A stretch of 64,000 nucleotides of DNA, taken from positions 198,594-262,593 of the forward strand of contig BEHV01000001.1 of the NCBI GenBank assembly GCA_002898315.1, read 5' to 3'. The first letter of the stretch is position 1; the number at the start of each line of letters is the position of its first letter. The notes beneath the pieces are model-generated. The model saw only the letters and a list, made by a program, of their open reading frames with translations, did not search any database and was not told the origin of the DNA. Positions 9,835 through 15,734 of this stretch are shown here, piece by piece. A program made the translations under genes and the position numbers. The DNA is from a bacterium HR19. Lineage in GTDB: Bacteria; Calescibacteriota; Calescibacteriia; Calescibacteriales; Calescibacteriaceae.

Positions 9835-10410
9835 GTGGGAAGCTTTGAACTTTTTGAGCTACTCAAAGAAAAGCTCGGAGAAGAAACCGCAAGAAAACTC
9901 ATTGACTACATTGAAAACATAAAAAGTCAGGTCGTCACAACAGATGTCCTCATAAAATTGCTTGACCTCACAAAATCTGAAATCATCTCAAAAACTGAAA
10001 AAGATAAAACCGAAATATTAGCTAAAATTGAAGAACTGAAAATAAACACAGATAAAAAAATTGAAGAGTTGAGAATAGAAACAGACAGAAAAATTGAAGA
10101 GTTGAGAATAAGTACAGATAGAAAAATTGAAGAGTCAAGAATAAGCATAGATAGAAAAATAGAAGAGTTGAGAATAGAAACAGACAAAAAAATTGAAGAG
10201 TTGAGAATAAGTACAGATAGAAAAATTGAAGAGCTGAGAATGAGCTTTGAGCTCAAAATAAAAGAACTTGATTCTAAAATTGAGCAGTACAGATTAGAAA
10301 CTCAAAGAGATATTGAAAAAACAAAGTCATCGCTTATAAAGTGGATGATTGGACTTATGATAGCTCAAACCACCCTCATCATCTCTGTCATAGCTTTCCT
10401 GTCAAAATAA
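9835..10410 (+). CDS. Tail-anchored coiled-coil protein with 11-residue repeats
   Basis: The 191-residue protein has three parts. An N-terminal segment of about 60 residues (LLKEKLGEETARKLIDYIEN) resembles bacterial DUF1640/CCDC90-like proteins. A long coiled coil of hendecads (KIEELRIETDR) follows. One C-terminal membrane helix ends the protein (WMIGLMIAQTTLIISVIAFL). It probably forms a rod held at the inner membrane, with the bulk in the cytoplasm; function is unknown. The start is GTG with a TAAAAT hexamer 7 nt upstream and no Shine-Dalgarno. It is separate from the nitrogen run. Confidence 0.75.
   Translation: MGSFELFELLKEKLGEETARKLIDYIENIKSQVVTTDVLIKLLDLTKSEIISKTEKDKTEILAKIEELKINTDKKIEELRIETDRKIEELRISTDRKIEESRISIDRKIEELRIETDKKIEELRISTDRKIEELRMSFELKIKELDSKIEQYRLETQRDIEKTKSSLIKWMIGLMIAQTTLIISVIAFLSK
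10024..10287 (+). repeat. Tandem 33-bp repeats (eight units, six well conserved)
   Basis: Successive 33-nt units begin at 10024, 10057, 10090, 10123, 10156, 10189, 10222 and 10255, each coding an 11-residue hendecad of the form KIEELRIxTDR. Units 1-6 are well conserved and 7-8 degenerate. Units 3 and 6 are nearly identical in DNA. Confidence 0.9.
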
Positions 10411-12229: not shown

Positions 12230-12850
12230 TTAGGGATTAAGATATGTTTTCTTCCAAACCCCGTCTTGAAGGTAATAGAGGATTCTTTTGTGCAATCTTT
12301 CTTGTGTGTAGATCAAGAACTCGTATTCAAATGGTATAACTCTGAAACCGAGCCAGTAAGGCGGGCGCGGAACATCTTTCCCTTCAAACTCCTTTTTTAA
12401 ACGTTCAAACCTTTCAAGGAGTTCTTCATAGGATTTGAGTGGCTGGCTCTGTTGAGATGCCCAAGCAGATATTTTAGCAGTACGCGGTCTTGTGTTGAAA
12501 TACTCATCTGCTTCCTTTTCTGAAACCCTGTCTGCCTTCCCTCTTACTTTGACCTGACCCCCGGTATTCTCCCACCAAAAAAGCAAACTCACAAAGCAGT
12601 TCTTCTCGATCTCTTGACTTTTCCGCGATAGCAAACTCGTGAAAAAGATAAATCCATCTTCCTTTCCGAACCTTTTCAGAAGAACAAACCTGCTATTTGG
12701 TTTCCCATCTAATCCAACAGTTGAAAGAACCATAGCATCAGGATTTTTCTCCTCCTTCTTTGCTATCTCATACCAGACCGAAAAAACCTCAAAAGGGTCC
12801 TGACATAGTTCAAAAATATCAAGATATTTTTCAATCTTCGCATCAGACAT
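12230..12850 (-). CDS. pdxH: Pyridoxamine 5'-phosphate oxidase
   Basis: This FMN enzyme oxidises pyridoxine or pyridoxamine 5'-phosphate to pyridoxal 5'-phosphate with oxygen. The 206 residues match the family. Visible FMN and PLP blocks are NSRFVLLKRFG, FFTSLLSRKSQEI, GQVKVRGKADRVS, YFNTRPRTAKISAWASQQS and the C-terminal QERLHKRILYY ending in LNP. The enzyme uses O2, so some oxygen exposure is implied. It lies 60 bp after the chemoreceptor gene on the same strand. Confidence 0.93.
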   Translation of the reverse strand: MSDAKIEKYLDIFELCQDPFEVFSVWYEIAKKEEKNPDAMVLSTVGLDGKPNSRFVLLKRFGKEDGFIFFTSLLSRKSQEIEKNCFVSLLFWWENTGGQVKVRGKADRVSEKEADEYFNTRPRTAKISAWASQQSQPLKSYEELLERFERLKKEFEGKDVPRPPYWLGFRVIPFEYEFLIYTQERLHKRILYYLQDGVWKKTYLNP

Positions 12851-12910: not shown

Positions 12911-13786
12911 TTAATCAATCCTGATGGTTTTTAATTTTATAGATACACTTTCTAATGATTGGATGATATTCAGAAGTTCAGAAGAAATTCTTGCAATTTC
13001 AAAAGCCCTTTTCTCTATCTCCTTTGCAGAAATATTTTGCTCCTCAACAGCAGATGAAATAGAACTCAAATCCTCTGTAGCTTTCTCAGATGATTCCTTT
13101 ATAATTGAAAAATAGTTATCTATATTTCTCAGCTCCTGAAGGAGTTCGTTCGCAAAACTTGATATTAAGTTTATCTCTTCCCTCATTTTATTTACAAATT
13201 CAGTTAACCGTTGAAGTTTTGATTTGCTTTCTTTTGATATATGTGATGTTCTTCCTGCAAGTTTTCTCACTTCTTCTGCGACAACAGCAAAGCCCTTTCC
13301 GTGTTCCCCTGCTCTTGCCGCCTCAATTGTAGCGTTCAAAGCTAAAAGATTTATCTGTTCCGCTATATCTTCTATCTCAGAAAATGAACCAGATATGCCC
13401 TTATATATATCAAGTAGCTCATTTATGCTATCTGAAAGAAACCTTATCCTCTCTAAACTTCTTATGATAAAATCTATCTTTGATTTCAGAAGTTTATCGT
13501 AGTGGCTTATCTCATCTCTGAGCCGAGCCATCCTCTGATTTATCTCAGATGTTCTCCTTGATATCTCAGAAATAGTAGCAGAAAACTCCTCATAAGAAGT
13601 GCTAAAAGTTGAACTGTAAATATTAAAATTTCTTGCAATCTTGAAAATTATCTCCACAGATTCCCGAAATAGAGAAAGAAATAAGTTAAATTTATAAACA
13701 TAGGGAGCTACCTTTCTCAAATTCTGCGCCAGAACCCCTGAATCAGTGTTATCTGAATTTTTTTGCTTCTTTCTCAAAAACCACAT
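12911..13786 (-). CDS. Soluble chemoreceptor (MCP signalling domain, no membrane segment)
   Basis: The 291 residues are almost wholly the antiparallel coiled coil of a methyl-accepting chemotaxis protein. The conserved CheA/CheW-binding tip [20 protein letters not shown] plus [20 protein letters not shown] (about 143-182) is intact. There is no transmembrane helix or periplasmic domain, so it is a cytosolic receptor. The N-terminal 60 residues match no sensor domain I know. It starts 15 nt after the ODP-type diiron gene, behind a GAGGGG ribosome site, so the two are cotranscribed; the diiron protein is the likely sensor partner. Confidence 0.88.
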
Positions 13787-13801
13787 ATTCTAATCCCCTC
13801 A

Positions 13802-14584
13802 CTAATAACCGTAGATTTCATCTAAAATGTCATCTCCACATTTTAGATTTTCAAGCCATGAGAGAAACCTTTTGACATTCTCACCCCTGAATATCGCTCC
13901 GTGTTGTGGAGCTATTATATCAACTTCATATTTCCTAACCATTGAAACCCATTTTCTCAAAACTTTATTGCTTTTCATATACCTTTTGTGAAACCATTCC
14001 ATATACTTCACATGCTTTTCAAAATCTTCAACCTCAAAATAAGTATCGTTTTCTGGTATGACAGAAGCCCCTATATCTCCCGAAAAAAGAATCTTTGACC
14101 TTGAATCATATAAAGAAAAATTACCTTCTGAATGAAGAAAGTGGGCGGGAATTATATGAAGACGGGAAAAAGGAAGGTCTATTGTTTTGCCTGAATCTTG
14201 AATCGCTTCAACCCCTGATGTATCCGCCGCTCCAAAATGTGGTAGGAATCTGATCCAAAGACGCGAGATTAAAATCTTTGCGTTCGGACAGACATTCATA
14301 AAGATACCTATCCCGGAGCTAACATCAGGGTCCTGATGAGAATAAAAAATATATCTTATCTGTTCAAGAGAAATATATCTTGAAATGTTTGTAATTATAA
14401 AGGGAAAAACGTGAACTCCACCTGGATCAAGAAGAACAGCTTCTCTTCCAGAAATTATAAGGTACTGATTCGCTTGAACTTCTCCCGCTCCTTTATACGA
14501 CCAGCCCAACCAGATAAACTTGTGATTTTCATCTGAATACAGCAATTTGCCAGATTCTGCTTCTTGCTCTGAAATACCCTTCAT
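13802..14584 (-). CDS. ODP-type diiron metallo-beta-lactamase-fold protein (oxygen/iron sensor-like)
   Basis: This 260-residue metallo-beta-lactamase-fold protein resembles the diiron half of flavodiiron proteins, without the flavodoxin domain. Candidate iron ligands are H83, D85 and D87 (SHQDPDVSSG), H148 or H151 (AHFLHSEGN), D170 (LFSGDIGA) and H228 (APQHGAIF). Family knowledge: ODP proteins of Treponema bind a peroxo-diiron centre and signal O2 and Fe(II) to a cytosolic chemoreceptor. Here a soluble receptor gene follows 15 nt later, which supports that role over catalytic O2 or NO reduction. No Shine-Dalgarno is seen, and the leader contains a (TG)7 tract. Confidence 0.82.
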   Translation of the reverse strand: MKGISEQEAESGKLLYSDENHKFIWLGWSYKGAGEVQANQYLIISGREAVLLDPGGVHVFPFIITNISRYISLEQIRYIFYSHQDPDVSSGIGIFMNVCPNAKILISRLWIRFLPHFGAADTSGVEAIQDSGKTIDLPFSRLHIIPAHFLHSEGNFSLYDSRSKILFSGDIGASVIPENDTYFEVEDFEKHVKYMEWFHKRYMKSNKVLRKWVSMVRKYEVDIIAPQHGAIFRGENVKRFLSWLENLKCGDDILDEIYGY

Positions 14585-14657: not shown

Positions 14658-15734
14658 CTATGTTTTATTGATTTTATCTTTCAGGTTCTGAAATTCTTTT
14701 TCCAAATTTTTCAACCTCTCAAAAATTTCAGGAAGTTTAAGGTATAGGGAGTGGATTTTGAGAAATTTTGTTCTTTCCATAGCAGGTTCTCCCATAATAA
14801 CTTTTCCTCCTTGGACATCTGAGATTATAGCAGACCTTGCAGCAACAACCGAAAAATCACCGACTTTGACATGGTCTACAACTCCAACCTGTCCGCCAAA
14901 AACGCAACCTGATCCTATTTCAGAGCTTCCGGCTATCCCCGTAAGGGCAGCTATTCTCGTTCCACTTCCTATTTTGACATTGTGAGCCACCTGAACAAGA
15001 TTATCTATCTTCACATCATCTCCTATTTCTGTTGAACCCATTGTAGCTCTGTCAACGCAGGTATTGGCGCCTAATTCCGCTCTTTTACCTATCTTCACAT
15101 TTCCGACCTGTGGTATTTTGATTATCTCACCGAAGAAAGAGAAATATCCAAAACCATCAGCACCTATAACAGCTCCTGCGTGAATTATTGAGTCATCTCC
15201 TATCTCTGAAAACGGATACAGGACAGCGTTGGGAAATATCACAACTCCGTTTCCTATTTTAGAAAAATCGCCCACGAATACACCCGGAAATAGGACACAG
15301 TTTTCCCCTATCTCTACCTGCTTACCGACATAGCAGAAAGGGAATATTATTGTGTTTTTTCCAATCTTGGCAGAAGGAGATACAAAAGACAGGTTGAGAG
15401 ATGTTTTAGGAAAATACGATTTATACTCCCAAAGAGAGAGAACTTTAACCATAGCGATATAAGGATTTTCAACCTCTATGAAGTTTTTGACCTTTATCTT
15501 TCTTGAACTTATTTCTTCTTTTTTTCTTTCTACAAAACCTGATTCAACAACAAGACAACTCGCACGGGTCTCGTAAATAAACTTTTCATACTTTGGATTT
15601 ACAAGAAAAGATATATCTCCTTCCTTCGCTTTCTCTATACTTTGCGGAGAAAAAACAAGTTCATCTGGATTTCCAAAGATTTTACCGCCTATAAAATCTG
15701 ATATTTCCCTCAACGACTTTTCTAACTTCATCAT
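14658..15734 (-). CDS. lpxD: UDP-3-O-acylglucosamine N-acyltransferase
   Basis: Third enzyme of lipid A synthesis: it adds the N-linked 3-hydroxyacyl chain from acyl-ACP to UDP-3-O-acylglucosamine at the inner face of the membrane. The 358 residues show the N-terminal uridine-binding domain (ISFLVNPKYEKFIYET), a long left-handed beta helix of hexapeptides (IGADGFGYF, VDRATMGSTEIGDDVKI) with the catalytic-type VQVAHNVKIG histidine, and a C-terminal helix pair. Its presence shows lipopolysaccharide and an outer membrane. The start is one of two adjacent ATGs, with AAAAAT 8 nt upstream. Confidence 0.95.
   Translation of the reverse strand: MMKLEKSLREISDFIGGKIFGNPDELVFSPQSIEKAKEGDISFLVNPKYEKFIYETRASCLVVESGFVERKKEEISSRKIKVKNFIEVENPYIAMVKVLSLWEYKSYFPKTSLNLSFVSPSAKIGKNTIIFPFCYVGKQVEIGENCVLFPGVFVGDFSKIGNGVVIFPNAVLYPFSEIGDDSIIHAGAVIGADGFGYFSFFGEIIKIPQVGNVKIGKRAELGANTCVDRATMGSTEIGDDVKIDNLVQVAHNVKIGSGTRIAALTGIAGSSEIGSGCVFGGQVGVVDHVKVGDFSVVAARSAIISDVQGGKVIMGEPAMERTKFLKIHSLYLKLPEIFERLKNLEKEFQNLKDKINKT

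Follow-up and report, generated by a model that had tools for sequence, protein, structure and literature searches.

In Treponema denticola, the oxygen-binding di-iron protein ODP is a chemotaxis oxygen sensor that is genetically coupled to TDE2496, a methyl-accepting chemotaxis protein (MCP) that has no membrane and sensing modules and can modulate CheA (PMC7666581). Cryo-ET of T. denticola revealed no obvious array position for ODP (PMC7666581); thus, a direct ODP–MCP complex is unproven even in this organism. The pairing of ODP with MCP, ODP structures and the function in O2/Fe(II) taxis were published by Muok et al. (2019, PNAS), as cited in PMC7666581, PMC7319448 and PMC7785958. According to the summary of Muok et al. 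(2019) in PMC7319448, ODP genes share operons with MCP genes, for which two gene orders are described, or with other signal-transduction genes, and ODPs are also found fused to signal-transduction domains. A related group is formed by the flavodiiron proteins (ROO, FprA, flavorubredoxin), which have in common with ODP the metallo-beta-lactamase fold and a carboxylate-rich di-metal site.

Here we describe an ODP–MCP gene pair in the window (the whole 64,000-nt stretch of DNA analyzed). Among the arrangements listed in PMC7319448, it is an example of the first, an ODP–MCP operon, and the pair is already known. The host is represented by a hot-spring Calescibacteriota MAG (1.88 Mb on 22 contigs, 82% complete), and the nearest named genomes with an ODP gene are Candidatus Calescibacterium assemblies. 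To our knowledge, Calescibacteriota have not previously been reported to carry the pair. This hot-spring phylum thereby joins the phyla with the ODP–MCP pair of oxygen/iron taxis, and no new mechanism is raised.

Arrangement of the gene pair

On the minus strand, the gene for ODP (14584–13802) is followed by that for a soluble MCP (13786–12911). The MCP had been placed 15 nt downstream in the initial annotation, and the intergenic gap (13787–13801, minus strand) is exactly of this length. The two co-directional genes are likely co-transcribed, and their arrangement and domain matches are far above chance expectation. Also on this strand are lpxD (14658–15734), 73 nt upstream of ODP, and a pyridoxamine-phosphate-oxidase-like gene (12230–12850), 60 nt downstream of the MCP. 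Given these close neighbors, the transcript may exceed two genes. The gene order with both neighbors is kept in one other genome (G002, locus L015) and broken in another (G004, locus L013). Scans of the region for promoters and terminators returned matches no more frequent than in shuffled sequence.

Relative to T. denticola, the locus is from another phylum and its two genes are exactly adjacent, separated by the 15-nt gap.

ODP and its metal site

The 260-aa product of 13802–14584 (minus strand) matches the ODP family PF19583 at 257.9 bits (cut-off 27.2) and PF00753 at 69.4 bits. It consists of one metallo-beta-lactamase-fold domain, with no second domain. Neither a flavodoxin nor a rubredoxin domain was found by Pfam profile search, in agreement with its initial description as a single-domain metallo-beta-lactamase protein without a flavodoxin domain. 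The best solved relatives by sequence are the two ODPs in the PDB, 6qrq (E 4.5e-96) and 6qnm (E 1.6e-86), and the scores against the two solved chemotaxis-sensor ODPs are 324 and 293 bits. Flavodiiron proteins rank after the ODPs among PDB sequence matches, at E 2e-5 or worse.

The protein is 55% identical to the ODP of Thermotoga maritima (6qrq, 6qwo; 249 columns) and about 50% identical to that of T. denticola (TDE2498). Its AlphaFold model (pLDDT 93) superimposes on T. maritima ODP with TM 0.92 (rmsd 1.5, at the same 55% identity), or 0.92–0.94 for 6qwo. For T. denticola ODP the TM is about 0.84, and the structures matched include 6r9n, a peroxy di-iron entry.

The flavodiiron-type ligand pattern previously read from the sequence (H83, D85, D87, H148/151, D170 and H228) lies at these residues, and H83, D85, D87, H148, H151, D170 and H228 are invariant in an alignment of 27 ODPs from many phyla. 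Likewise invariant in this alignment are V88 and Q227, on which the initial annotation was silent. H83, D85, D87, H148, D170, H228, Q227 and V88 are all identical in 6qrq and 6qnm. Motif 2 (H83-Q-D85-P-D87-V88; 14321–14338, minus strand) contains predicted di-iron ligands, and motif 5 is P226-Q227-H228-G229 (13898–13909, minus strand). In flavodiiron relatives recovered by the same family search, motif 2 is HxExDH and motif 5 is mostly PSHG; V88 occupies the position of the flavodiiron third His of motif 2. A superfamily review (PMC7785958) describes Gln as a substitute ligand in T. maritima ODP, and Q227 is the counterpart of this substitution. The ligand set, motif-5 Gln included, is common to the T. 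maritima and window proteins, with no substantial difference at the sequence level. Comparison with T. denticola ODP, which is likewise single-domain, gave the same motifs (HQDPDV / HxxH / GD / PQHG).

A tree of 70 rows was constructed from ODPs and related proteins, including the window ODP, both PDB ODP sequences and 17 flavodiiron proteins. All 46 of the 46 single-domain ODPs, the window protein among them, fall on one side of a branch with SH-aLRT 99, and the 17 flavodiiron proteins fall outside it. The initial annotation had named placement among catalytic flavodiiron proteins as an outcome that would speak against its proposal; the protein instead groups with ODPs, and forms a cluster with two others from its family (SH-aLRT 95).

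Soluble MCP

The 291-aa product of 12911–13786 (minus strand) is a predicted soluble MCP signaling hairpin, with a PF00015 (MCPsignal) match of 103.6 bits. A Pfam profile search of this protein gave no match to a sensor domain. Its peak 19-residue hydropathy is 1.14, compared with about 2–3 for membrane MCPs at the surveyed loci, which indicates a protein without a membrane helix. The AlphaFold model is all-helical and forms a single long hairpin (residues 14–288), as expected from the earlier description of an MCP coiled coil lacking a membrane helix and a known sensor domain. The closest structures are the cytoplasmic domain of a T. maritima receptor, a HAMP-Tsr fusion and a soluble T. maritima receptor (PDB matches include 2ch7, 3zx6 and 3g67, the last being the soluble receptor). 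The latter (3g67/3g6b) is likewise a four-helix-bundle MCP without a sensor domain, although it is shorter (213 versus 291 aa) and about 24% identical. TDE2496 is similar to the window MCP in having no membrane or sensor module (PMC7666581).

Two matches to the methylation consensus were identified, at residues 62 and 245, and methylation-based adaptation is possible because CheR is encoded in the genome. Strong conservation is limited to the CheA/CheW-binding tip. A second conserved patch that might serve as an ODP dock was sought by conservation along the MCP, and just a weak rise was seen at residues 21–50. This is insufficient, and we propose no docking site.

Distribution of the gene pair

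Scanning a single genome from each species recovered 338 relatives, of which the best 80 loci were examined. At 79 of these 80 loci, the gene directly 3' of ODP lies on the same strand and encodes a soluble MCP with no membrane segment; this fraction is biased upwards because the loci were picked by likeness to MCP-linked ODPs. At almost all of the best 80 loci, the gap between the two genes falls between −52 and +53 nt (121 and 238 nt in two), and the linked MCPs are about 265–325 aa long (265–323 aa where complete). Within the same 80 of 338 loci the unit spans at least eight named phyla. Among the phyla that have the pair, neither the gene order nor the ligand set varies much.

This survey bears on the initial suggestion that the lineage has the same two-part receptor as T. 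denticola, reduced to a two-gene operon. The kind of receptor is upheld by family, fold, tree, adjacency and the presence of cheA, cheW and fliG. The word "reduced" is not appropriate: given the soluble MCP directly 3' of ODP at nearly all of the surveyed loci, the two-gene unit is the normal form, and such operons are already described in PMC7319448.

A less biased search of 60 genomes also found the MCP, at six of six close single-domain matches (G000, G001, G002, G004, G014 and G054). More distant ODPs in this search are mostly segments of larger proteins, and several of these have other output domains. In G003, a genome of the same family, there was no ODP match above 28.5 bits, and thus the pair is either absent from or unassembled in this genome.

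The distance matrices of ODPs and MCPs are correlated (r 0.83; permuted maximum 0.09), which is compatible with co-evolution and shared descent alike. ODP-linked MCPs cluster more than expected by chance in an MCP tree that is limited by long branches and is compatible with a single origin or with several.

Other arrangements were also seen. The exception among the 80 loci is a Nitrospirae MAG (L105:37-7170), where ODP without a soluble MCP is located inside a cheW-mcp-mcp-odp-cheR-cheD-cheB cluster, beside two membrane MCPs. Elsewhere, the ODP domain is fused to a GGDEF diguanylate cyclase (L147:1569-3212, in G014), or joined to a response-regulator receiver (L019:1078-2853) or a class III nucleotide cyclase (L021:1417-3039).

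Chemotaxis genes and predicted function

The initial annotation held that absence of cheA/cheW would count against a receptor. The host genome has two cheA-like genes: one for a canonical CheA (Hpt, H-kinase_dim, HATPase and CheW domains) and one for a second CheA-like protein (HATPase and CheW domains in the part tested). Three more ORFs have CheW domains. CheR, CheD and FliG were also found, as were four further MCP-type proteins above the family cut-off. Calescamantes have been reported to have flagellar genes and cheY/cheD (PMC4791363).

With the pair embedded in a genome that has che and flagellar genes, and with family membership, ligands and linkage conserved as described, the two genes very probably encode a two-part cytosolic chemoreceptor that biases swimming by O2/Fe(II). 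By analogy with the characterized systems, ODP would bind two irons, and the reduced iron would react with O2 to form a di-iron peroxo species. The altered ODP would then act on the adjoining sensor-less MCP which, seated in a CheA/CheW array, would change CheA activity and so bias flagellar swimming. Iron and O2 binding, contact of ODP with the MCP and the response direction in the host are carried over from work on T. denticola and T. maritima.

The presence of two CheA-like proteins, compared with one homologue in T. denticola (PMC7666581), raises the idea that the pair feeds a cytosolic array that is distinct from the membrane array and has a kinase of its own. We consider this unlikely, though conceivable; if true, the system would be unlike that of T. 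denticola, whose receptors all share a single CheA. Also improbable is a two-part receptor that, in this hot-spring lineage, responds mainly to iron or redox state (or NO) rather than O2. The cue in vivo is not readable from sequence, and the title of Muok et al. (2019) presents ODP as sensing Fe(II) as well as O2, but the ligand set is the same as in O2-binding ODPs. A flavodiiron-type O2- or NO-reducing enzyme whose flavodoxin domain was lost and which lies beside an MCP by chance is very improbable: the fold is common to both groups, the ligand sets overlap, flavorubredoxin models match the sequence weakly and the model aligns to flavodiiron structures with TM about 0.72 (17–18% identity), but flavodiiron proteins have the flavodoxin domain and form a separate branch, the ODP product has neither flavodoxin nor rubredoxin domain, V88 and Q227 replace flavodiiron residues family-wide, and the MCP neighbor is kept across phyla. 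A search for a flavodiiron enzyme elsewhere in the 82%-complete bin gave one other weak match only (20.6 bits).

Outside the proposed chemoreceptor pair, the window also encodes a short protein (9835–10410) that has imperfect repeats like KIEELRI(E/S)TDRK and is hydrophobic in a segment at its C-terminus.
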